From positions 2,888,501 through 2,952,500 of the forward strand of contig NC_134028.1 in NCBI RefSeq assembly GCF_964204645.1: a stretch of DNA of 64,000 nt. Direction: 5' to 3'. The stretch's first letter is position 1; each line of letters opens with the position of its first letter. The notes under the pieces are model-generated. The model saw nothing but the letters and a program-made list of their open reading frames with translations, was not told where the DNA came from and ran no database searches. A program made the translations under genes and the position numbers. The DNA is from Tubulanus polymorphus. Its lineage: Eukaryota > Nemertea > Palaeonemertea > Tubulaniformes > Tubulanidae. Positions 2,880-61,982 of the stretch are shown piece after piece.

Positions 2880-3132
2880 AGAGTTTAATTTTGCTTTTAC
2901 TGGCAAAATAAATCTAATGGTGCTAATGGAGGTGATGGTTCAGGCGTAGTGCTGCTCACAGAGAACAGTGACTGTAACTCCTACAGTACTGCCAATGGCT
3001 TCTGTACCTCTAAGCATGGACGTATATACGTCAATACGAAAATGATTTCCTGAGAAACATGCATGCTCTCAATTGGAGGGAGTGATTAAGTCAGTGTGAT
3101 GAAACATTCGACATATTTTATAAAAGATTTCC

Positions 3133-3138
3133 AATAAA
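3133..3138 (+). terminator. Polyadenylation signal of POLR3H
   Basis: An AATAAA hexamer lies about 255 bases after the POLR3H stop codon, within AT-rich sequence. It is the first good signal downstream on the same strand. Confidence 0.5.
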
Positions 3139-3149
3139 ACATTCATAGA

Positions 3150-5927
3150 AATTCATTGATGAATCATTTTTGTTCATAGTTTATTTCGTAGATGAGGATA
3201 GAGTCATTTTATTTTCAATGCCTATTGACTATCACTAAACTTTCACCTCTTTCTATCTTCTTAAAGCTGAACTGACAAAGAGGAATCCACATATCCACAA
3301 ACCTATCCCTCAACAAACACAGCAGCCAAATAATTAATAGTCCTTTGAGCTCTGATGACATGTGACAGTGAAAAACTAAGATTGAACTTAAAACAAAAAC
3401 TAAAAAATTGAAACAACTGATTTGGCATCTACATTTTTTTTTAATATTTTACTGTGCTTTGATAGAGATTCATACAATACATTTCCATAACAATTCCTTC
3501 TATAACAAATCTTTACATAACAATCTTTTAAATTTTCACCAATGTTTTCACTGACCGATGCATATACCTTAACTATGTCTTGGAACAGACAACAAGTCCT
3601 CAGAAAGAAAAATTGGTCTTAATTAGAGAAATATCTATTCACAAAACTCATTTGACTTCAGTGAAAATTTCGAACCTTTTCATGTACAACCAACCAGTCA
3701 TTTTAACCATAACCAAACTAGATCGGATGTGATAGGGAAAGGAGTACACAACATCAAGGCAAATACAAGCATTGAAAAAAACAACCATTTGTATACTATA
3801 GATCAAATTCCCTGGACTATTCAGTATTAGCTTTTTACCATTATTGCTTGAATGACACATTAATTTTGTGTAGAAATTCCACAAAACATTAATATGAATA
3901 TACATAAGTACTCGTATGAATAATCATCAATGTGACTGGTTCATTTCCATTCAGAGAGTCGGTGATCCAATATGACCTGGCATCTTTATAACCTGACCTA
4001 AGTACAGAGAGCTATTAAGTAACAATTATGCAATAAATATTCAAAATATTCCCAGCAGAATACATCAGTCCAAACATAAATAGGTCATTTTCTTCAAAGT
4101 TCTGTTGAATTCAAAATTTGGACACATAATTTATGATGAAAAGTACTGTTGAACAATCTAACTATTGGGAAGGGCACATATGTCTAGGCCTACTTACAGA
4201 ACCAATTGAAAATGGACGGTTTATCAGTATTTTGCACGGCACGTTTTGGTCGTCAGCAGTTTAGACAATCATAGGCCAGTCAAATATAGTTACATCAATG
4301 ATCTCTATATAAAAAATATACAATTTTGTGTGAAGAAAAATTTCAATTAAGACACATCTCGATAAAAATGATGTACATTTAGACGAGGAATAGGTTTGAT
4401 TTTTGCACCGGACGGTTCTCTATAGATTTGATTTTGATTATCGAAGTACATTTCAGTTCTCCAAATAAAATATTTATCAGCAGTAGAGAAATACAGCAAT
4501 AAACAAATAGATTCATTTGTATGGAAGAAATTGAAGGCATTTGGCATAAATTGATGCCATCAATCACAAGATTTTTAAGCATGGTTAACTGTTCTTTCTG
4601 ACATTGTTTCTGGTAATATTATTCCCAATTGAAATTAACTATTCTTTGTAGGCTACCGACAGAAACAAGGTTCGCCAGAACAAATTATCTAGTACAACTC
4701 TTTATGGTCAATTTCTAGCAAAACCGTTATCCATGACAGCTCAGTTACTTAGTAATTCAAATTTATGTACAAATAAAACATTTTAGTTAAAAAGCCAATT
4801 AATTACAAGCAGAAATACATGATCAGAAAAGAGTATTTCATAATGGACGGAATGTTCTATTATTGATGGCAATGCTATCTTTCATACAGAGATAGGCATT
4901 GATAACCTGAACAAATGATTTTGTGTTACAATATAATTAAAGCAATTTCAATCAGCATTATCTACGAATAAATACAACTGAAATGTTTGCAAAACCATTC
5001 TGCGAATCGAGGGATTTATACCGAAATATAGAATATGAGTACACAGGTTTTAACATAATTTCACGCATAAAAATATAATAATGAACATTGTAATTAAACA
5101 CAGTAGGACTACCTATACATCTGTAATGATAATTTCAGTAAAATAAATGCATTATTTTCAACAGACTAACGTAGAGCAGATATATATGTTCTCTGCGACC
5201 TGAAGATATTAATCACAGTAGACTCAAAAAACAACAAAAGCAAAGCAAATTTCAATTACTGGAAATTGCAATTTCATCTATCAATAATGATACATTACCC
5301 AATGTTAAAATCTTCTCGCCATACTTATATCTTGAGTTATATCTCAAACCAAGACAATTGCACCGATTGCCATTAACCAAAAAGCTACGGGTCACTCATC
5401 ATTGGTAGAAAATATCAATGAATCGGTTACCGTTTTGAATATAACAGATAAAATGCATTTGCCGGTATGTTGTTCACTGAGACTACTAAACGAGGACACA
5501 TTTTAAGAAAAGCGAGAATATATCAAAATATACAAATATATGATAATAATAATCATAATAATAATAATAAGACAATGATTCAAGAACAATAATACTAACA
5601 ATGACAACTAGCTAAGAGTAGTAAAATCTATTCATTATTTCACAGATCGTTTGATATGCTTTCCTGGGCGTGATTAAGAGAATCGTAATATGAATTTTCA
5701 AATTCGAGTTTGATCAAAATTCTTCACAATTCACAGCAATCCAGTTTATAGTGTAAGCGATGGAGACAATCATATATCTATGAGTAGTAAATAGTAAGAT
5801 GTATGAACAGCAACACACTTATAATAGTTAATGTACAACAGACGTGCTGGCAGTAGAGGTTGTGGTCACAGCAGTTTTTCTACGCAGACGGATTTCGATA
5901 TGATGTATATATTCAGCAGCTCTGTGT
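3150..5927. other. Convergent 3' region between POLR3H and PKD2
   Basis: No coding exon is supported on either strand. The two neighbouring genes point towards each other, so much of this stretch is probably the PKD2 3' UTR (read on the minus strand). Several TTTATT hexamers, which are AATAAA on the minus strand, occur near 3180, and an exact 3' end cannot be chosen. Confidence 0.45.
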
Positions 5928-29706: not shown

Positions 29707-32700
29707 ATGGTAAGCAGATTAAACCTTTACATTTCAATGATTGATAAGTCATCGACGTGGTCCTGAAAAAAATTTCCAATTTGTCATTTAAAATAGTCTG
29801 TTTTTATTCCGTTCACATAAAGACAATTCTGCGCCGAATATCCTGACCCTGTATACTCGTTTGGTATCACATTTCCGCAATATATGGCACTAGTGTGACT
29901 TAGGGTTAGACCTAAAGGAAAGGGTTAAAGGGATTGAATTTAAACTTTTAAACTATAGATGCTCCAAAATTTCCAACGGCAAAATGTCACAATCTTTTTT
30001 ATTGCAGTCGACAGCCAGTCCAGGAGATTCGGGCAGCGGCTCTCGACGGGAGAGAAATGATCCCCCAATAAAGTCATCATCTCCAGTAGCTACTAGTGCT
30101 AAGACCCCACACAAAAAGAAACCCACCGATTTCAAATTTGGCAAACTTATCGGTGAAGGATCATTTTCATCTGTAGGTATCAAGCAAATGTCAATCAATT
30201 GCGGGTTATTTAAAAGATGAGAAATTAGAATCTAAATTTGTTGAAATTTCAGGTGTTCTTAGCGAAAGAAATAAGTAATGGCAAAGAATATGCAAGTAAG
30301 AATTACCGACTTACCGACTTAACCTTGTCCTGTTTTGGCAGTTGCGATTTATTGATTGATACCTCATTATTGCGATGCTCCTTTTTCAGTGAAAGTTTGT
30401 GATAAAGCACAGATAATTCGTGAGAAGAAAGTCGCGTACATATCACGTGAAAAAGAAATCCTGTATCGTATAAATCATCCGTTCTTCGTTAAACTACATT
30501 TCACTTTTCAAGATACGGAGAAGCTTTGTATCCTTTTTTGATGATGACAAAATGTGAGCATGTACCCCGCTGTCACAGGGAGCATGTACCCGTGCTGTCA
30601 CAGGGAGCATGTACCCGTGCTGTCACAGGGAGCATGTACCCGTGCTGTCACAGGGAGCATGTACCCGTGCTGTCACAGGGAGCATGTACCTGTGCTGTCA
30701 CAGGGAGCATTTACCCGCACTGTCACAGGGAGCATGTACCCGTGCTGTCACAGGGAGCATGTACCCGTGCTGTCACAGGGAGCATGTACCCGTGCTGTCA
30801 CGGAGCATGTACCTGTGCTGTCGCAGGGAGCATGTACCCGTGCTGTCACAGGGAGCATGTACCCGTGCTGTCACAGGGAGCATGTACCCGTGCTGTCACA
30901 GGGAGCATGTACCCGTGCTGTCGCAGGGAGCATGTACCCGTGCTGTCGCAGGGAGCATGTACCTGCACTGTCACAGGGAGCATGTACCCGTGCTGTCACA
31001 GGGAGCATGTACCTGTGCTGTCACAGGGAGAATTTACCTGCACTGTCATAGGGAGCATGTACCCCGCTGTCACAGGGAGCATGTACCCCGCTGTCACAGG
31101 GAGCATTTACCCATGCTGTCACAGGATAATCAGGCACGGAGTTCATGTTATGCCATCAAGTTCGGTCATCATGGCATTATAGCGTTAGCTGCTGGATAGA
31201 AATTGCTAATTAACTTCATGAGTTATTGATTCTTGACAAGTTTAATCGACAGATTTCGGATTAAGCTATGCAAGACGCGGAGAGCTTTTAGATTATCTCA
31301 AGAAACTCGGTTCATTCGATGAACACTGCACTCAGTTTTATTCGGCGGAAATAATTCTTGCCCTTGAACACTTACACAGTCAAGGTATCATTCATAGGTA
31401 AATCAGATTTAATCATCAAGAAACAATCGGATATTTCTTTCGATAGCTAAATGACTGAAGTTTCGAAGATTAGTCTACATCATTGTCAAACACGACCGGC
31501 AATTATTTGATTCATCTTTGTATCTGTAGGGACTTAAAGCCGGAAAATATTTTACTGAATGATGAAATGCATATTCAAGTAACGGATTTCGGATCGGCGA
31601 AAATTATGGACGGAAATCAGCATTCATCGACCAGTTCATCATCTTCATCAGCGAGTCAATCTTCAGGTATGTTCGACCTTCTAATTATGTACGGCGGCTA
31701 CTGATCTAACAAGTGTAAAGTGATTTTGGTGATGAAGATTAGTGTAGATGCTAAAAAAAAGTTTGTAGAGCAGGCAGTAAAAGGATTATATATTTTGCTA
31801 TATTTTTCTAGCAGACGGTAATGAATCTAGCGGAGTAACTCGTCGATTAGAGCGTCGTAACTCATTTGTGGGTACTGCTCAATACGTGTCTCCTGAGGTG
31901 CTAAAAAGTCAAAGTTCTTATTATAGGTAAAATCTTTTCCACTTCTAAAGCAGGGTCCCTATAACTCCTTGATTCCTTTAAGACTTGTTCTAAACAACAA
32001 ATGTTTTAAACGTGCTTGAAACTCCTTTTATTTGAGCAAAATGCATGAAAATCCTTCAATTTTGAGAAATTGGTAATTAGATAGATATTTTAGAAGTTGT
32101 ACAGCAGACTACCCCTAATTGTGTACAGTTGAAGTCTGGATTTTTGTTATCCAATTAGGTGGTTACCGTATTAAAAACCAAGTTTACATAGTGTAAAGAA
32201 TAAGATTTGTTTACAAAACCAACAAATTTACGGTTTACCAAGATGAACAGTACTGATTAAGGATGAGTCTACGAAAGTGATGCAGACACTTCCTCAAAAT
32301 TAGAAATTTCCTTGTTTGAAACTGCTTGAAAACTTAAATCCAGAAATGACTGATCTGTTGGGACCCTGTAAAGCCACACTGTGTATTCCATGCGCGTATT
32401 AGCTTATTTTTTCTGTTTACAGTTCGGATCTGTGGGCACTAGGTTGTATAATATATCAAATGTTGTCTGGATTGCCTCCGCTCAGAGGACGACATGAATA
32501 TGAAATATTTCAAAAAATCTGTAAATTAGAATATGAATTCCCTGAAGGGTTTAACCCGACTGCCAAACATTTAGTGGAATCGTTGTTGGTAAGTAACTGC
32601 ATACGAGATTTGGGATTGATTTGAAAATAGATCGGTACATGGTCATGAGTTAATCGCCTGGCTTTTGTTATTTTAGGTGTTAGATCCAACAAAAAGGCTC

Positions 32701-47301: not shown

Positions 47302-48414
47302 TTTGCCTGTAAATTCGCAAATTTCGCTGTGAGCGAATTTGGTTAATGTTGAAAGTTTTCGTACTGGAAGGTGGCGAAGGTGATGTCGAATACCACATTA
47401 TTGTTGGAGCGCGCTCGGAGGCAACGGAGCCTGAGTCCGGCAGTTGGAGGAGGGAATTTTATTTTTCACAGGCGCAGTGCGCATGCTCTTTGTTAAATTT
47501 GTAAACATGATACATGAAATCACTGATCATGCACACATCGTGTGTCAAAGCCTAAAATATAAATCCCCCAAACTAACTATTGCGACTTCTGTCACTCAGG
47601 TCGATCGAACGCATAAGGGTGACACGGCCAATGATTTTACTTCCCTCTTCCGGTATTGACGGTTACCGGTATTGACAGCAGTAATGATAACTTTAATTCC
47701 GTATAAACTATCAAATTTTATATATTTATCCGTCAGTGCACCGCATACATATATTGATATCCTTTTGAAATACAAATAATATTAAATTACAGAATAACAA
47801 ATAGCATGCAGAAATCTTTTTGCCTTGTCAATCACACGAAAAATTACTTCCATAAGTACATACCCTGGGTATGTACGAACTAGATTTTCCACGTGAAAAT
47901 TAAATTCTAAAGGGCCCAGACGTCTTTGTTTGATCATTTCAATTACAAAATCACAGAGGATTCTGTAACAGATGGCATTCTACACATTCCCGACACTGAT
48001 GTTACAGTACGCATAATGTTTATACATATATCTTAATGGAAATTTGTATTGCGCTAATCTACGGTAATTGAATCGTCATAATGGTTCAAATTTCATCTGG
48101 GACCAAATAAGGATAATTGTAGTGCGCCAGGGTTGGTTAGGTAATGGATGGATTTTTAATTAACTTTGATACATGAGATTATTGGGTGCGTGGTTTACGT
48201 GTTGAAATGAAGGAGAACATCTGTAAGGATGTGAACGATTTCAATTTAAAAATTCATTAATCAGACGTTCCTACAGTCTACATTCCACCAGGCTACTATA
48301 CTAGTAAATGAACACACTATTTCAACACGCAACGGAACTATTTCTGTAGTGTTTTATTCAGTCTAAAAACCGGCAGTATTGATTTACACCCGCAGTTCGC
48401 GATTCAGTCTTTAC
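47302..48414. other. Upstream region of PLA2G6, up to the transposon
   Basis: No coding exon seen. A short palindrome (acataccctgggtatgt) lies near 47860. The region should contain the PLA2G6 promoter and 5' UTR, and is bounded by the transposon target duplication at 48415. Confidence 0.45.
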
Positions 48415-48421
48415 CTACGAT

Positions 48422-48453
48422 CAAAAATTCATAAAGACTAAAAATGTACAACT
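48422..48453 (+). repeat. Left terminal inverted repeat of the transposon
   Basis: 32 bases beginning CAAAAATTCATAAAGACT and ending TGTACAACT, identical to the reverse complement of 54764-54795. Preceded directly by CTACGAT. Confidence 0.95.
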
Positions 48454-48876
48454 TTTTTGCTGACTTTTGAGGTAACTTTGAAAGCCTGTAACTCAAAAAG
48501 TGTTTGGGTTATATTCATCATGAATGTACCGCATGAAACAGAAGAACGTGCTTTTTCTAAGGGGCGTTAAATGTAATAGCCAGGAATAGCCAGAACCGTG
48601 TAATTAGCATTTATAAACTCCTATGAATGACTTCATTTAGGCCTTCATTCACAGGCAGTTTCCCTAGCACTCAGTTCCTAATGTGAAACACAGAGTGCAG
48701 CACTAGCGTATTCCATACATATATGGTGGGTTACTGGCTGGGTTCCAGCTTAACACGTGGGGTTATATTTTGATCCGAGTCCGTGGGTCAACAAAAGGTT
48801 ACCGACATGTGTTTTAAGATAAATAACATATAAGCAGCAATGTTTCAGTATTCTTCTCCACACTGCAATAGTGACC

Positions 48877-50070
48877 ATGGCAAGAAAACGCAAAACAAAT
48901 TCCGCTATCAAAATTATTGAATCAATATCCTTAATAGATATCTGTAAGGATGTAAAAGAGAAAATGTTGCAGACTAGACACTTAATTTTTTTTCCTCAAA
49001 GGATGGAAACTTGGGAAAAAATGTTGAAAGAAGGAACGCTAGTGAGTGATATCATTTTTGACCTGCACAAAACATTTCAATGTTCTTATAAAATAACCCA
49101 ATCCATGACGGATCCATATGTTAATTTCATGTTGGAGTGGAATGATAAACTTCGTCAATATTCGAGCAATGGGCCGTTTATATCTACTCCTCATGAAATG
49201 TTATGGGATCTTTTTCAAAAGGATAAAATTGAAATTGATTCAGCAGGAGCAATCATCCAAAGTATCGGTGACTATGTGAGAAATTATATACAGGCCAGAA
49301 TGAACATTTCTGAAGAAAGAACCGAGACGAGTATTTTGAAGCCGCAGTCAACTGCAGGACTGTATCTTGTTTCTGGTGGCTGTTTGGGACTTATGTTTTC
49401 TTTATATAAGCGTGAACGTCGAAGGGGTAATACAGAAGCCCAGAAAAAACTTCGAGTCCTTTCGAAAATGATAATTTTTGACAAAAGCAAGTCTTCAAAA
49501 TTGCCTGTTGAAGTTTGGTGCCGTGATAAAGGTGGACTTTACATATTCAAGCCAGAATTCATGGATATGGTAAAATCAATTGATACCGAAATCATGAATT
49601 GTGTAAATGTAACCGAATTGCAAAAACATAAAAAAAGAATTATCAGGGTAAGTAAACAATGTTTTAAAATATTTTTTATTGCTCTTAATACAAAAAATAC
49701 ACATCAAAATAAATTAAATGTTCATATTTTTCAGCTTACAACAGACAAAATTCTGCCAAACAAGGATCTTGAAGCAGTTTTTGTCGGACTTGTCACACAA
49801 AGTGTTGGATCAGAGGTGGCAGATGAACTGAGACTGAACATAGTTTCTGTTTGGACGGACTTTTTGCGTAAATACACTCATGCGCGCATAAATGGAATCA
49901 TAAAGGGAATATACGAGAAAAAAGTAGAAAAATCTGGTAAACGCCTGAAAGGAGGATCAAGCTTAAGAGAAACGCTTTATAATCTTGGAAAGACAAGAAA
50001 CCCTAAACATTCTAAATCAACTCCTTCAACTTCTAAAAAACAATCTGTTCGTAAAGGAGATAAACGGTGA
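48877..50070 (+). CDS. Transposon accessory protein, unrecognised
   Basis: The start is ATG at 48877 in a good context (gtgaccATGG); an in-frame GTG at 48871 is not a likely start. Read through, the frame gives 397 residues. However, 49648-49734 has a strong donor (agg|gtaagt) and acceptor (tatttttcag), is exactly 87 bases and encodes AT-driven residues. A spliced form of 368 residues, in the same frame, is therefore likely (...KKRIIR|LTTDKILPNKD...). The protein is basic, with a Lys/Arg N-terminus (ARKRK) and a Ser/Lys-rich basic C-terminal tail (KHSKSTPSTSKK). A central part contains LPVEVWCRDKGGLYI and FMDMVKS. No known nuclease, polymerase, zinc-finger or membrane motif is visible. Its position convergent with the transposase suggests an element-encoded partner, perhaps a DNA-binding or regulatory protein; that is inference only. 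Confidence 0.8.
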   Translation: MARKRKTNSAIKIIESISLIDICKDVKEKMLQTRHLIFFPQRMETWEKMLKEGTLVSDIIFDLHKTFQCSYKITQSMTDPYVNFMLEWNDKLRQYSSNGPFISTPHEMLWDLFQKDKIEIDSAGAIIQSIGDYVRNYIQARMNISEERTETSILKPQSTAGLYLVSGGCLGLMFSLYKRERRRGNTEAQKKLRVLSKMIIFDKSKSSKLPVEVWCRDKGGLYIFKPEFMDMVKSIDTEIMNCVNVTELQKHKKRIIRVSKQCFKIFFIALNTKNTHQNKLNVHIFQLTTDKILPNKDLEAVFVGLVTQSVGSEVADELRLNIVSVWTDFLRKYTHARINGIIKGIYEKKVEKSGKRLKGGSSLRETLYNLGKTRNPKHSKSTPSTSKKQSVRKGDKR

Positions 50071-50187
50071 CATGGTTATTAATTGAATAATAATACGATT
50101 CTTCATTTGATGTATATAAAGGTAACTAAGAAATTGGACAATACATGAACGTATATGTTTATATATAATCTATTTTTAGTTTGTTAA

Positions 50188-53100
50188 TTATTTTTTTCTC
50201 ATGAGTGGAACGTCCTGGGTATAAAGCGGTGTATCTCTGTAATAATTTCTCTTCTTTTTCTTCTGATGGCCATGGACCTCTCTTTTTAACATAACAGTTC
50301 TCCTTGCCTGTGGATAGTTCAATGACGTTAGTTTTCCACCCACGCAGTGTTTAAACTGCGAGAAGAGAGTTTCTACTGCACTGCCATTCACTGTGAGTGG
50401 GGTAATGTAATATCCAGGAAATTCAGTGAGATAGTCTTTACAAAATCCAATGAACCCAAACACCATAACACGAAGTAGATCATATGTCTGAAAATATAAA
50501 TAGTGTCTCCATTTCTTATAGATGCTCATTTAAAAAGATAGCCATAGGTGCTATTTCGTTGATATGTTATCTTAGTTTACCTGCCAACTAATAAATTTCT
50601 TTTGGGATGGAGAAATCATCTGGAATTCGTCAGCAACTGAAAATAAGATAGGAACCCAAATTTGAATTAGTTAATTTCTCTATGAATTATTTCGTCTGGC
50701 AAATTTATTTTAGACACATGTAAAATAATTTGTTATATCGGTGCATTCACTCACATTCATGGTGTAGATATTCACACCAGTCCCTGAAGTATTTATATCC
50801 TTCTGAGATGTTCAATATGATTGGGCTTTCCATGTCATGAATCTGGCTATTTCTTGTCATGTCATTTGGTTTTCTACTTTTCAGAAGTCCTTCTTCAAAA
50901 AGTTGGCTGCAAGCCACCAGGTAACTTCGGGTTGCCATAACATGTTCTGATTCCAATGGGATAGGAGAATTGTCGGGATTCGCGTAACTGTAGAGTTCGG
51001 CAAGCACTTGCGGTTGCTATAAATAAATACAGTTCGTGAAGACTAGGTTCTGACAGTTATCTCTTAATTAAGTTTGAATTAATGTTTTTTATACCTGCAT
51101 GATTTTTGCTGGTTTAACATTTAGCTTAGTCCAGGAATCTCGTTCTATATAAGATTTGATCAATCCTGGTACCATCCGAATATGATTATCATCTCTTCTT
51201 TGAGTTTCACGATTCCACATACTTTTTATTTCATCCCATCCGAATTCAACTCCATTCATGAAGTTTTTCGTTCCACCTGTTTGACTTGCCCACAACTGAT
51301 TAATTTGATTTTTAAGCTGTAAAAAGAAACATATCAATGAAAATGAGATCCTTCAATTATACTGTAAATTCCATATTTCAACTTGGATAGAAGTGTTTGC
51401 TTACTTGATGTGATGGACAGATGACAAAGTAAATTTTCTTTTCTGGTTCGTGGGGGTTCATCATCCAAGGTTCAACTTTATGTCGATCTTCCTGGGCATC
51501 CTTTAGACCAAAGGCACCGTGCGGATAACCACTGAGTGTTTTTATCATCGATAGGTTGGTGCTGGCTCCATCAGTCACCACCACCCTTGTCTGCAAAGAA
51601 ATTTGAAAATTAAAGATATCTGAAGATGCTAATCAATGGGTTTCATCAAAAATTATGAATTTTTGGTTTCATTTGCAATCAACTTAAAAACTTACCCTGA
51701 ATCCATACTCATAAAAGATTCTCAAGACATCATACAGACAAGCTGTCGTAAAAGCTGCATCCATTGTTGTGTGACAATTAAAATAAGGTCCAATAATATC
51801 GAAATCACTGCTTAAGTCCCTCCACAAAAACTGCAACTCATATTCAGCCGTCTCTGGTGTACATTCTCCGGATAATTCTTTGAAAATATCTTTCAAAGAA
51901 GACATTTCTGTGGCGTCCATAGCGAGCCCGTTGAGTTGTTTATTTTTACTATTCCACGCTACTTTACCGATAACTTTTACTTCATCGAGTATCAAAACTC
52001 CAGTTGAGGTTGGTGATTTTTTGCCTTTCGATGTACACTCATTTTTCCACAAATTATAACGGTTAAATGTGTCTTCTATATAATCATAATATGACTCCGT
52101 TCCAGGAGCCTGCAACAGTGCAGTAGAATAGTGCTGCAGTGAACTTCGCGAGGGCAGTTTGAAAATTCCCCACTCTTGAATCGCTTCGTAGGCTGCAGGG
52201 CTTCGACAGTATATTGACAGAGCAATTCGATAGGTGACCATACTCCAACGGTTTCCTTTTTGTCCAGTTTCTAATTTGAAAAATTAAAATATTTTGTAAA
52301 ATTGTCTGGATTTCACTTTTCAATTTGAAATTTGGATTAACAAATATATTGAGTTAAAAGAAGTCCAATTTTCATCTAGAATTGTGGGCTAAAGTATCCA
52401 ATATTGAGAAGTATATTGAAAATATCTAGTGGTTCAGAATTATATGAATTTTTTCATGAATTCAAAATGATAGAAATTCACTTACCATTGCGGTGCTGAT
52501 CGGCTTCCCAGGTAGTTTTTATTGCTTGCAATGTGTCTTTTTCTAATTCTGCTTCCGCTAAGACAGCTTCGATATCACCAGGCTTGACGTGAGAACAAAA
52601 ATCTTCCAATTCCTTACTTTGCGTCTGTTCAAGTTCGATGGTATAGTCATTTTGAATTTTCTGTGAGGTGTTAATTAATCGACGCTTTATATTTCTAGCA
52701 CTTGAACTCTTTCTCTCGATTCTCCGCTTTTTGCTTCGTGGTGTCAAATTAGTTATAGGATAGTTAGAATTTTTTTCTGAACGTCTTGCTTTAGTTTGCG
52801 GAGTAACCAATTGTTCACGCTTGTTCGTCTTTCGAAGATTGCGATAAGCATTTGAACATTCCGGACATCGAGACGTTGCTGATGATCTTGCTTCTCGTTC
52901 TTCTACCGTGGCATTGAATCGAAGTTTGAACCATTTTTTGCACTTTTTTGATATAAATGATGGCGGAATCTTTCTCTCGATAACGAACGACGGAATATAC
53001 TTGATTGACGAACAAACGCTGTCAAATTCCGGTCTGGATATTCCTGTGCAGAATACATATTCACTAGACATCCGACCAAGCATATCGTCGATTACATTCC

Positions 53101-53464
53101 AATCTATTCCCGTGTCCGATAGATATGATGTTTCGAATAATAATTCATCGCATAAGTAGTGTTTCAGAACACCAGATGTGAATATTAATATCTTCGACAC
53201 GGTTGCTGGTCCTCCCGTAGTGAATCCCACATCACATATTCCTCGAGTAATCTCGAGAAAAATATCTCCAGAGCAACTTAAAAATCGTATTTGTAATAAC
53301 GCAAATAGATCGTGAATATAGTTAACTATTTCTGACAATTCCGATGGACCAGCATTAAGAGCAATTTTGCTACTACCCGTTTGAGTAGTTTTATGGTCAG
53401 TTTCTTTAGAAAGTAATACTGGAACATAAATAACGGCGGGTTGCGCTGGAAAAAATGTAGTCAT
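50188..53464 (-). CDS. DDE transposase, P-element-like, seven exons
   Basis: Exons in transcript order: 53464-52486, 52270-51696, 51590-51405, 51316-51095, 51016-50755, 50636-50581, 50487-50188. All are GT-AG with matching phases, giving 859 residues without a stop. Exon 1 (1-326) has a CxxC (Cys200, Cys203) and a long basic Lys/Arg stretch (about 211-270), but no THAP zinc finger as in THAP9 and P transposases. The catalytic core follows: SRSSLQHY, then GVLILDEVKV (Asp422), VVVTDGASTNLSMI (Asp525), CPSHQLKNQINQLW with a downstream FGWDEIKSMW block (the P/THAP9 C-P-H-LK..N and W..I arrangement), and a C-terminal NGSAVETLFSQFK (Glu799 as candidate third acid). I assign the P-like superfamily from these motifs with moderate confidence. 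Cut-and-paste transposition in the nucleus is inferred. Confidence 0.85.
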
Positions 53465-54763
53465 CTTTTCAGCTTTACTTGTTGCAATTGAAAGACATTA
53501 TATGAATGCGGCTTTATATATGTTTTGAGTTGATCAGTTTGATGGTTTCTAGGGGTATGAACACTGATATTAGTCACGGTAATTAAAAAGAGCAACTGCT
53601 ATGTTTTAACCCGTGCACACAGTGATGCATGGCAACTGGTAAAACCATGAACAACTATCTTTTTCGTAGTCATACAAATTTACTTGAAAATCGATCTAGA
53701 TGTAATAAGTTCATTTTTTTATTCAAAGGTACTTATGAGTGGTTATGGCTTAAAACTCCCATTCATATTGCTTTTCTATATTACGGGTTGTCTAAGTCGT
53801 TATTCGAAAAACATCAAATGAAAAAAACCCGTGTAATTTACCTATCTGAGAAAAACTTGTAAAACTCATTTGTTCTCGTCGGTTTAGCAATTTTAAAGGA
53901 TTCGAGGTAGAGAATCGTATATATTTTCACTATCTCTATAAAATACCAAATCAAAAGAAGTTGTTTAGCCTAGTTGTTAAGTCTTTATTCGTTCCACTAA
54001 TGGGTGAAATAATGGATGAATACCACAGTAACTGAATATAAGGTCATTTTTAGGAATTAGGCTTTATACGTTTTCCGATTCGAAGTTTTTCATTGGGAAT
54101 TTTTCGAATATATACCGTGTGCAATTATGTAATTTCTCTAACTTTTTGTTATGCATTAGTAGACCATAGAGAAAACTCATAATTATACGCAAATATAATT
54201 GCATCAATCGAGATATTTCATAAAGATTCTTTGCTCCGGATACAACAAACGTGGCTTCAACCATTTAACTAAGATATTCTGACCATTCAAGATATCACTC
54301 AAGTCACACAGATTTTCCAGGTACTATAAGCTCTACAAGCTTATAGTGAGTTTACTATAGTTTTCTAAGTATCATTTGTTTATATAAACATAGGCTGTTT
54401 AAATGTCTGGGTCAGCAAACACAAATAGTAACACACCCGTGTACAGACAGACCACATGTGGTTAGGGACAGTACTGTTGTTGTGCTATGCTAATGACTTA
54501 CTTATATGCCAATATTCGATTGTGGTGCCATCTGGTTACTACAGGAGTACCCAGTAAAATGCTTGTGAGGCTATGAAAATCCATGAAAAAGAAGGGAGAT
54601 CTTTCGCCATCTAGTGAGAAAGTGTGCTACTTCTCATAGTTAAGCAGCTATGATCTATATAGGAGAGATTCCACTGAGTCAAACGATACCAAAATTGTAT
54701 TTTTAAGTTGAATAGTAAATCTGTCACAGAATCTCAAACAAAGGGAAAATAACCCATTTTACG

Positions 54764-54795
54764 AGTTGTACATTTTTAGTCTTTATGAATTTTTG
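54764..54795 (-). repeat. Right terminal inverted repeat of the transposon
   Basis: Reads AGTTGTACA...GAATTTTTG on the plus strand, the exact complement of the left terminus, followed directly by CTACGAT. Confidence 0.95.
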
Positions 54796-54802
54796 CTACG
54801 AT

Positions 54803-57800
54803 TAATAAATGGGAAGCGTTTTTAACCACAACTGGTGAAACGGGAATAGGAAATTGTTTTGATTTTTATAAGTAACTGAGGCCGGGATGTTGAACCCGTT
54901 GGGGCGGTTTTCCGAGAATGGAGCAAATCGGATGATAATCGGCCTGGATACACATTTGCTGTGTATTCACTGTGAAAACTTCTTCAGGTTATTTGCTGCA
55001 AAATAATCTTGTCTGTCGTCCTCTTGTCTATTGATAGAAAACCTGTTTAGCGCAGACTCACCGGGGATTTCCTGTCGACGAATCCACTAAAAAATCGCCA
55101 GTCTACTTCTCATCAAGAAACAAAAGCCAAGAAACTGACTTATAAATAATAACCTCAGCACTATATATTCTTGCATAATGAGTAATTTTTACATGCTCTT
55201 ATTTCACAAATACATCGTATACAATATACAGAAAATCAAGCACACCAATTACTAAATACAGAAGCAGTGTAAGTCCGGTGGGGGGGGGGGTGCAATACAC
55301 AGACTCCGAGCAGGATTGACATTTCATTATGATAAGAACACAGAGATTTGTATTCGTATTCATACACGTAAAGCACAGATTCAGAGCCCAGAATTATTCA
55401 TCATGTATCTAATAGCAGTTTCATTAATTCTAAAATATCCATCGCTATTGCTAGTATTCAAAGGTAATGTTACGAGACAAATGAGTAAAAACCCTATTAG
55501 AATTTGATATCAGATCCAGCTAAAAGCAAAAATATAACCTATCATAAACTTATCGTAATAGGCCGAGGTAATTCAGTCATGATACAACTATGTAGATGAT
55601 GCCAAATAACACATAACTAGATGACTTTTAAGAAATATCTTTAAAAAAAATTTTCGAAGGAATACAATTCTTTCCTAATTTCATTAAAACTGTTATTTCA
55701 CTCAAATTTTCTACTTGAAGTATCATGATATATTTCAGTCAGTATCAAATTAAATTCCGTATTTCATAAGGATTTTTCAACAATTCCGATCATACAGAAC
55801 TCATACAGACACTTACACAATTGACATTTATTCAACGATATTAAAACATCACATGAACCGCGATCATCTGATGCTCGAATACATAGAAAAAAACATTTCA
55901 AAAACACACATTCAAAGCAGTTTATGTTTTGACAACAATCACACAAATTGTCATACTTATTTTTTACAATTATCATTGAATATACACAACTGTTTTGTTG
56001 CCCAGTTAATGATGAAAGCGTTAACAGCTTTCAGAAGCTCATCTACAATTTCTGAATTAATGAAATAAGTTTGATTTTTACAGTGTTCATCATCAATATC
56101 TAGCGGAGTCTTCAAAATCTATCAAGAGTCCAGTCCCCCTTCAGTTCCAGCCAAATTATAAACGAAACCACCCGCATATTCCATGCCCTATACGGGCCTG
56201 AATTTCATCGAGGTTAGGATATAAATTATCGATACAATGAGACAACTTTGATATAAAAGCTCGTGCAAGGTTTTACTTCTGGGTCTAGTTTAGATCCTTT
56301 TCAATTCATATCCCACAACAGATCTGAACACTTGCATTCAGTAGATTTTAATTTCTATGATTAATCATAGCCTGGCATATAACTGGAAAACTAATTTAAT
56401 TATCCCATGATGGACCCTCATCCCACACTATTATAACCAGGATATACCCTATACATAATTGAAATTTTAATCACACGCAGTCAATTGAGTAGCATTATTC
56501 AATTCAGTTTTAATACATCCTCCCAGTGTTTAATTATCAAAGATGATACGAATGGAATAGATATTTCAGCATCAATATCGAAAGCAAAGATGAAAGATAT
56601 AAAGAAAACAACTCTTAAATCCTGTATGGCAATTGATGATTAGCGCAATCATAGCGCTAATAACTCACGCGTTGATGACACATTAAATGTTTGATGAGAC
56701 ATCGAAGAAACATTAAAATTTTGAACCGACGTCGGCAAAGCTTCAAAGCCGATCGTATCAAAGGCATTTTTCCATTAGTCATTACAGATATCTTGGAACT
56801 CAATATTTTACGGTCGTTTTGAGTATATCAGTTTTAGAATATCTAATTAGACCCCGCCATTCGACTCATGAAATAATGATCAAAGTCATTGTCATCGACG
56901 GATTTAGATGTCGATATAAATGACGACGAAGTATTTACTGATTGCCGTATAGCTGCTTTTCAGTATTTTCTTTCAACGGTTTGATGAAGAGGACATATCG
57001 ATAAATATCTCCACTTTCAATCAAATTATTTATTAAACCATATTTCAGTATTCATCTGAACAGTTTCGAAAAAGTCAGATCCGCTTAATTAAACCATATC
57101 ATTGATTCGAAATGAGTTTTAGTCCTAGCATTATTAACTATGTCGAATTATACTGAATTGTATATATATAAATTTGAGTTCTATTGTTGAATTCTATTTT
57201 CTCATGGGTTGGAAATATGTCGATTCTACAAAATTGAATTCGAAGCCTTCGCACCAATATCTACAAAGTTTATACATAGACAGAGCTGGTAGAATTTTCT
57301 TACCTACCGACCATGATTATATAAAAGATTTCTCCATCAACATCTAATTGCTCACTGGCTTTATTGCGCCCAGTAGATCATCACACAATAGGCATTAGAA
57401 CCCGCAGTAATAAATAATGTTATAACATTATCGACCGGTTATAGTTTTTACGATATTGTCACCAGCAAGACCTCGCAATATACATCATTCCTAACGTCTA
57501 CCGGTATATACCAGGTCTAGCAGCAACAACATAAGCTGTTAAACCAGCAGAAAATACAGAAGCAGGAAAGAGTAGCGATGTAACAGCCCTTAAAAATTTA
57601 AGAAAATTCTTTCTAAGTATCTCACTCTTTTTTTATACATTTCAATCCACTGATCTACCATTAAAGACCACAAAGTTATAAACCAATACAAAAAATGGAA
57701 ATTTTACTAGTAATTCAAAAACTACTAAACCAGTGACTGATAAAAAAAAATGCAAATTTCTTATTATTTTCTAACATATTTCATCACAATCAACCATTAC

Positions 57801-59011: not shown

Positions 59012-61012
59012 ACACACAAGTTTCTTTATGTTCGTCTTAGGAAATTTCAATAGAATACACTTCTCAAAACAGATGCCATCGATCGATATATCGAAGTCCT
59101 GCGCTTAACACGAACCACGAGTTTAGGAAGCAGTCCATTCGATCAGGATCTGGATAATGATGGTCTGGGCAGAACTTCATCAAATGGAATTTTCTAACTA
59201 AATATAAAACGAAGATTCATTAATCGTTAAATCATACGTTCTACATGCGAGGAAAATGTTGCTAATTCCTGTGGTCATCATCAATGAAATCGCACTTGAT
59301 ATAGTTTCCATTTATGAGCACTCTCTTATAATGATTTCCCTTTAAAACCGGACTCATTGTTTTCATATCCCTGATTTATCTACTGCACCCTACCATCCTA
59401 ATATATATACAGCCAATTTAATCGCAGACATCCATTTTTCCTACAGCGATATATAGATATCAAAATAGTCATCAAAAAGCAGGTCAAGAGTTATTTTTCA
59501 GACTCCTTCTACGAAGCACTCGATCCATACAAGGATAAAAATACAATATAATGTATTGTACACTTGTTGGTTAATAATATTTCAAGATTTCGACGAATAA
59601 TCTCCGTTTGAGAAGGTAAAGGGTTAATTACCGCTGGTGGCTAAACGACACATTTATATCATACTCACGCAGAACGATAATTAGATATTATCATATATGA
59701 CGCATTAAAAATGTCGGCGAGCTCACTAGACTCGTCTGAAGGCAGTTTCTGAAACTATTAATTTTTGTGACGTCGTATGATCAAAATACCTGCATGACTC
59801 CCTTTTCGTGAGTTAGAACTCAAAAGAGTTCACTTACATTATCGAAAGAGTCGCGAGTAAGAACTCAAAAGAGTTCACTTATTTCATCTAAAGAGTCAAA
59901 TAAACCAGGTGTCGAGGATACAAGAACTATTTCGTACTATTCCACATTTGGGATTTTGAAAACTATACGCCTAGATAACATTCACCGAGGATAATTTCAT
60001 GAAGAACACAAGCTGACTGGCGTGTGTACAGATATATTGAATTTCTAATTAAACTTCCCCGGTTCCCAACACAACACCATCTCGTTTGATTAAACATAAA
60101 CACACAACTTGTTATTACCCCGAAAATTACGGCAACAGCACTCAGCTGTTTAGAAGAGATACTTTACTGAAAAGCTATGAAGTTCATACAAACACAACGT
60201 TAAAATGCTCGGATTAAAAATGATGGCTAAGTCAATAACGTACAAGGTGCAGAAATCTCGAGTAATTCGAGGCTACTCGACGAGGCTGCTTCATCAACTC
60301 TCAAAATTGATGACTGAGTGAATCATATTTTGTACCGAATCGTTAACGACATCCATAAGATCCCTTTGTCTGTTTTAACTTTAAGATAACATCTTACGAA
60401 TCATACAATTTGCTTTGACTTCTCGTAAATTAAGTGAAAGTAGATCCTATGATATCGATGAAGAACTGCTAAATGAAAATGTGAATAAAAATCGAAAATC
60501 AACACGCTATTCTAAAAATAAAATCTCAAGTGGTGTGATAATTCTAAAAATGCAGTTGGTCTGTAAGCAGAAATTGAATGAACTAGGCCTATATTTCAGG
60601 CAATATATCCTCCTCTTCAAATTGGATTCCCAGAAAAAAGTTTTTAAGTTTTTTCCCTCTAATAAAAAAGGGACATAACATAAAAATATTTGCACCGGAT
60701 AATCGTGTATGGCTGCATATAAGTAATGTACAAACAGGGAGCTGTACGATTGAACGACCGATTCAGTTCTTTATGGTGCTTTCATAGAAAACAACGTTGA
60801 CACAGAATCGAGCCTCAATATCTCTTCTGTCGGTCAGTCCACTTTTCCTGGCAAAATAGTTCCTTATTTAGATTGTACCTAGATGTCTGTAGTAATACGA
60901 AACGACAATACGAACAGTGGTTATTCAGTACAAATTGATAATCTGAGTAAGAAAATTCCATCTAGGCCTATTTCAAAATAGATTCTTGTTATTAACAGGG
61001 ACCTTCCTCCTG
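59012..61012. other. Region without a convincing gene
   Basis: No exon recognised on either strand. A plus-strand frame at 60415-60678 is A-rich low-complexity sequence with no supporting motif. Confidence 0.5.
59809..59900. repeat. Two-copy tandem repeat with internal palindrome
   Basis: GAGTTAGAACTCAAAAGAGTT at 59809 and GAGTAAGAACTCAAAAGAGTT at 59857 start two related units of about 45-48 bases, each ending aaagagtc. Each unit contains the palindrome AACTCAAAAGAGTT. Confidence 0.75.
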
Positions 61013-61347
61013 CACCCAATACAGTACCCAATACAGCACCAAATACAGTAACCAATACAGCACCAAATACAGTAACCAATACAGCATCCAATACAGTAAC
61101 CAATACAGCATCCAATACAGTAGGCTACCCAATACAGCACCAAATACAGTAACCAATACAGCATCCAATACAGTACCCAATACAGTAACCAATACAGCAC
61201 CCAATACAGTAACCAATACAGCACCCAATACAGTACCCAATACAGTAACCAATACAGTAACCAATACAGTACCCAATACAGTAACCAATACAGTACCCAA
61301 TACAGCACCCAATACAGTAACCAATACAGTACCCAATACAGCACCCA
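61013..61347. repeat. 12-bp minisatellite
   Basis: About 28 copies of a 12-base unit (cagtacccaata and variants cagcacccaata, cagtaaccaata). The period is a multiple of three and the minus strand has no stop, so three minus-strand frames of Cys-Ile-Gly-Tyr or Tyr-Trp-Val-Leu type repeats are open. They are not likely genes. Confidence 0.96.
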
Positions 61348-61982
61348 TCGAAAACAACAACATTAGATAAGACACAGTAGATTGTGGAATGCCGAATTGC
61401 CTTTGGTGATTGTCGTCTTGAATTTTTCATGTATCCAAGCGGGAAACGTTCGAATGCAGCAGAAACGTGAAAGGAATGACATGAATCAGATTTACCCAGA
61501 ATAAACCCCGGTATGACTGTATAGAACGAGATACTGCCTGTATGGTGCAGCAGGACCGTGCTGTCGTTATCACACCAGACAGTGCGTCGTTATACCTGTT
61601 GCCGAGTGACTCACTGTCTGTTGCATTAGTTGCATCTCGAGGACAATCGGATTCATCGATCACGAATATATAGATTTCGCTTTCAATTACAGAACCCAGG
61701 TGATAATGGCTGGTTAAAAAGTTTAAAATGCACGGTTTATCAATAATGGACATGAAATTCATATGAAATTCAGACGTAAAGCGCGAGCCTCGAAATCACC
61801 TTCAAAAATCCGATATAACTTTCAATCATTTAAACCAGTCCAAAGTCAAGCGCCAAGTCACCCGTTATCATATCTATAAGATTTAGAAGTATTTGATACA
61901 AAGCAAGTACCGACTAGTCGTAAACCTTATGAACCAGGTAGGCCTACAACAGAAATTGGGGTAACGGAACAACTTGGTGGCT

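Follow-up and report, generated by a model that had tools for sequence, protein, structure and literature searches.

A two-gene P-superfamily transposon of the nemertean Tubulanus polymorphus, with a second gene that may encode a detached C-terminal domain of its transposase

The DNA considered here, referred to as the window, is a stretch of 64,000 nucleotides from Tubulanus polymorphus (contig NC_134028.1, positions 2,888,501 to 2,952,500). Within the window a 6,374-bp transposon spans 48422-54795, that is, a pair of terminal inverted repeats (TIRs), bordered by a target-site duplication (TSD), enclosing two genes which face each other. With the TSDs the element occupies C4:2936915-2943302 of the genome. 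The term 'second gene' is used for the shorter of the two genes, which lies opposite the transposase gene. Features, as numbered within the window, are as follows:

48415..48421, no strand: left TSD, CTACGAT (sequence read directly)
48422..48453, plus strand: left TIR, 32 bp (repeat comparison)
48877..49647, plus strand: second gene, exon 1 (gene model, GT-AG intron)
49648..49734, plus strand: second gene, intron of 87 nt, open in frame (gene model)
49735..50070, plus strand: second gene, exon 2, ending at the stop; encodes the basic C-terminal tail (gene model)
50188..50487, minus strand: transposase exon 7; includes the stop codon and encodes catalytic E799 (gene model, alignment)
50581..50636, minus strand: transposase exon 6 (gene model)
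50755..51016, minus strand: transposase exon 5 (gene model)
51095..51316, minus strand: transposase exon 4 (gene model)
51405..51590, minus strand: transposase exon 3; catalytic D525 (gene model, alignment)
51696..52270, minus strand: transposase exon 2; encodes catalytic D422 and the P-type RNase H N-terminal domain (gene model, Pfam, alignment)
52486..53464, minus strand: transposase exon 1; encodes the N-terminal region, in which Pfam finds no domain (gene model, Pfam search)
54764..54795, minus strand: right TIR, 32 bp (repeat comparison)
54796..54802, no strand: right TSD, CTACGAT (sequence read directly)

The two TIRs are 100% complementary over 32 bp and CTACGAT directly adjoins both, just as a sequence-only reading of this DNA had claimed. 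A script whose sole criterion was inverted 12-mers with matching flanks, returned this as the only such pair in 48001-55500. In the 268-Mb genome the 32-bp TIR pattern has 19 matches at three or fewer mismatches versus 0 for the reversed control, and thus is not a product of chance. As both frames are open and the ends perfect, the window copy looks recent, and it may indeed be active at present. With its perfect ends, its TSD, and its two intact genes, the element bears out the earlier description of a complete, young, apparently autonomous two-gene transposon of the P type. Relatives were not found in viral and phage collections. Elsewhere in the window, at 30493-31199 and 60973-61589, there are apparent tandem repeats, the long overlapping open reading frames of which look spurious.

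A search of the genome for further copies with the 32-bp termini, which had been proposed as a check, did find such copies, and their readable TSDs are all 7 bp. The second full-length copy (L001, on C6) is 6,382 bp long, 99.2% identical, flanked by GTCATAC, and broken in its coding regions by frameshifts and a stop. Its ends match those of the window copy, agreement of boundaries being a point on which the sequence-only reading had staked its case. Another copy, on C1, is in pieces scattered across about 51 kb with GTAATAT at both ends, which would reflect either nested insertions or rearrangement. There is also a 232-bp derivative, L019, with both ends present (TSD ATGATAT), along with a diverged family, L014/L015 on C3, which possesses both genes in the same layout (TSD ATTTTAC) and has stops within its transposase gene. 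Identity among copies of the window family lies anywhere between about 80 and 99%, and to judge from that spread this family has been on the move for a long time. The pairs L003/L004 and L042/L043, on C1 and on C2, resemble mutual inverted duplicates.

Seven TSDs are readable, all of 7 bp, i.e., those of the window copy, L001, the C1 copy, L019, and L014/L015, plus those of two more distant P-like loci, L026 (GGTAAAC) and L042 (GTATAAG). All seven have A at position 6 and six have T at position 2, and their self-complementarity is above random (P 0.011, for this small sample). Galileo, a Drosophila element of the P superfamily, likewise makes 7-bp TSDs, with consensus GTANTAC (PMC2775673, PMC4168063), which fits both the T and the A; it differs in that its inverted repeats are long and its one gene encodes a THAP domain. 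Duplication of 8 bp by P types had earlier been taken as a distinguishing mark. Since Galileo makes 7 (PMC2775673, PMC4168063), TSD length does not set the present element apart, and as a sign of novelty it was rejected.

The transposase gene, on the minus strand, consists of seven exons with GT-AG introns and encodes 859 amino acids without a stop, a structure already claimed and now reproduced by the gene model. Its product matches PF21787, the P-type RNase H domain, at E 8.5e-8 (33 bits versus a cut-off of 24.6 in Pfam), and D422, D525, and E799 align with D230, D303, and E531 of P. Based on this domain and on conservation of the catalytic triad, the element is thus assigned to the P superfamily, an assignment which previously had been drawn from motifs and which the profile search, proposed as a further check, has now placed over a curated cut-off. 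Identity with other P-like proteins of the genome is 22-25%, and among those P-like loci L026 (E 5.7e-13) and L032 (E 2.9e-20) match Drosophila P transposase (6p5a) directly.

As to the GTP-binding insertion domain, PF21788 was not detected by Pfam in the window transposase. Residues of P transposase have been reported to bind GTP (PMC7776569), and one alignment places G, N, L, and S of the window transposase at K385, K400, N447, and D528, respectively. By that alignment V401, S409, and F443 are kept, and L026 keeps most of the GTP-contact residues, results which are alignment-dependent. Exon 1 gave neither a Pfam THAP match nor a C2CH pattern, in agreement with the earlier claim of no THAP finger, the pattern being a weak test as it also missed a THAP9-like stretch of L032; nor was THAP recognised in the sister P-like families. 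The window transposase stops 60 residues past its catalytic glutamate and seems too short to hold a P C-terminal domain, which it appears to lack.

The second gene, on the plus strand, has two exons and encodes 368 amino acids, with 117 bp separating its stop from the transposase stop; a second intact gene on the opposite strand, facing the transposase, had indeed been claimed. No Pfam domain was found in its product, which ends in a basic tail of +12 over 45 residues. As the 87-nt intron contains no in-frame stop, an unspliced product of 397 amino acids is possible. Splicing, however, is supported, in that diverged relatives have an intron at the same position, a much longer one, and an indel of L001 lies inside this intron. 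Compared with L014/L015, synonymous differences are saturated in both genes (pS 0.82 and 0.76 in transposase and second gene, respectively), whereas dN is 0.23 and 0.40, and both genes therefore appear to have been long maintained as proteins under purifying selection. In the same comparison the transposase is about 91% identical over its last 99 residues, versus about 52% over its first third.

Nor are facing second genes confined to the window family. At least four further, diverged P-like families possess a gene facing the transposase and just downstream of it, first seen in L026, L027/L028/L033, and L029/L030, and found as well in L034, L036, L037, L038, L039, and L042/L043. The second gene thus is not an isolated acquisition, and the earlier label of a 'novel accessory gene', if read as a one-off, does not survive, given recurrence of the gene in diverged copies and of a facing gene in these families. 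One sister element, L026:329-6218, is complete, with 5,890 bp, 31-bp TIRs starting CATGG, TSD GGTAAAC, and two facing genes. Sister second proteins display AGY, RGGL, and E motifs, with motifs in the same order in the window protein. By comparison, L032, a one-gene element, runs on past the end of its RNase H region without a change of strand, passing between frames and over what look like breaks, and there has YVTGY, CxxC, GGL.MP, and CE.VF.

Other features of these sister loci may be recorded. Transposases at L028:1853-3733, L031:1689-2078, and L029:3508-3960 have an N-terminal zf-AD-like finger (E 5.8e-6, short of the curated cut-off); that of L029 resembles as well the importin-binding region of RAG1 (E 0.009). 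A PHD-finger-like open reading frame lies upstream of the second gene and on the same strand at L036:2003-2323 and L037:3756-4076 (E 0.0013, below cut-off), a layout recalling RAG1/RAG2 by analogy only. L044 is a P-like locus with facing open reading frames lacking known domains (785-2399 and 2904-4199), its RNase H C-terminal match being E 0.0044, below cut-off.

The idea that second proteins are detached C-terminal domains came from the AGY, RGGL, and E motifs together with features of P and THAP9 proteins, and predates the fold search. For that search the second protein of L037 was modelled from 14 sequences, the window sequence among them, giving about 100 core residues above pLDDT 70 (overall 51). 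Foldseek against solved structures gave nothing significant. Upon realignment of its candidates, residues 617-734 of Drosophila P transposase chain B came first, at Z 11.2 with the next at 5.6, superposing at 2.6 A over 118 of 118 residues, that is, over the whole of the C-terminal domain. With helical bundles, a Z near 11 can arise by chance. A profile of sister second genes found no match among PDB sequences. PF12596, the Pfam model of the P transposase C-terminal domain, had one sister match, at E 0.045 and below cut-off, and found no match in the genome, its controls there being likewise silent.

For the second protein of the window itself, similarity to the sister second proteins is moderate. 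Against a profile of sister genes from which the window and C3 families were left out, the spliced protein reaches 12.5 bits, whereas the highest of 500 shuffles reaches 5.4; the unspliced open reading frame scores 6.5 bits. Profile against profile, the score is 27.5, which no column-shuffled control equals (maximum 23.9 among 200), with hhalign P of 0.007-0.018 at low probability. Its own model, made from the unspliced 397-residue frame, is poor (pLDDT 49), and a fold search with it did not show the P domain, the best rows looking unrelated. Given these moderate scores and the poor model, the C-terminal-domain reading is stronger for the sister families than for the window's second protein, which would nonetheless be expected to share the fold of its L037 counterpart.

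Taken together, the element probably is an autonomous, cut-and-paste transposon of the P superfamily whose transposase has been split over two facing genes, the second being the detached C-terminal domain; this is favored by the match of the L037 fold to the very domain that the window transposase apparently lacks. The minus-strand gene would supply a catalytic protein that comprises an N-terminal region, an RNase H fold carrying D422/D525/E799, and an insertion region, and the second gene would supply the C-terminal domain as a separate protein. The two proteins presumably act together, assembling on the TIRs, excising the element, and reinserting it with a 7-bp stagger. A more tentative extension, possible though rather doubtful, is that an entire branch of the P superfamily employs such a two-subunit transposase, with the C-terminal domain provided in trans, and that the window lineage, having lost GTP-contact residues, transposes without GTP, the cofactor characteristic of P transposase.

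From a different perspective, the second protein might be an unrelated accessory, such as a regulator, a targeting factor, or a DNA-binding protein, captured by a P-superfamily transposon, its likeness to sister proteins being a matter of positional convergence plus chance. The absence of a Pfam domain, an uninformative model, and only moderate HMM similarity are all as such a capture would have them, and unrelated facing genes do occur elsewhere: KolobokP, also a DNA transposon with an opposite-strand second gene downstream of its transposase, differs from the present element in its Kolobok-type transposase and long terminal direct repeats, and its second gene encodes a His-Me finger nuclease (PMC9587614). 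Capture nevertheless is unlikely, as it must contend with second genes of the same position and orientation in four or more further P-like families, a motif order held in common with their products, a profile score exceeding all 200 shuffled controls, and a transposase seemingly too short for a C-terminal domain of its own. That the second gene belongs instead to the host and was picked up by chance in the window copy has in its favor the lack of a known domain, and nothing further; as the gene is found in several copies and at the same place in a family 40-57% diverged, under purifying selection, this is hardly credible.

Lastly, the element might represent a separate DDE superfamily, having only its RNase H core in common with P. 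The window transposase had no Phmmer match in the PDB, and in a tree the window family and that of C3 occupy a very long branch whose placement is unsure; the altered GTP contacts and unrecognised THAP point in the same direction. Against this are the curated P RNase H model, exceeded over its cut-off, kinship to P-like proteins that match 6p5a, and a Galileo-like target preference, all of which render a separate superfamily very improbable.

With the Drosophila P element and THAP9 the window element shares the RNase H domain, the catalytic triad, TIRs of comparable length (those of P being 31 bp), and, presumably, a cut-and-paste layout. P, however, encodes THAP and C-terminal domain in a single protein from its one gene and makes 8-bp TSDs, whereas the window element has two genes facing each other, TSDs of 7 bp, no recognised THAP, and several GTP-contact residues that are not kept in one alignment. 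There is a likeness also with L026 and the L028, L034, and L037 groups, which have a facing downstream second gene and, where readable, 7-bp TSDs; several of these differ in possessing a zf-AD or RAG1-N-like finger, and their second proteins are only moderately similar to that of the window. Such a finger invites comparison with N-RAG-TP of Aplysia, but was not seen in the window transposase. RAG-like transposons (RAG1L/RAG2L) also pair convergent catalytic and partner genes (PMC7204232), with a Transib-type core and an unrelated partner protein, so that the likeness is one of layout only. Within the literature covered, Repbase Reports and most subscription journals being outside that scope, no P element was described as carrying an additional gene opposite its transposase. 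Of the suggestion of a distinct lineage there stand the divergence, the two facing genes, and the lack of a recognisable THAP, but not the 7-bp TSD, shared as that is with Galileo.

The facing layout of catalytic and partner genes is thought to be ancestral to RAG1/RAG2, and the present element lengthens the list of transposons in which a catalytic subunit is accompanied by a facing partner gene. If the split is real, then here is a natural division of a P-type transposase, separating functions which are fused in the enzymes that have been studied. The role of the C-terminal domain, whether in strand path, target contact, or contact with the partner subunit, would then become testable simply by supplying or omitting one of the two proteins.
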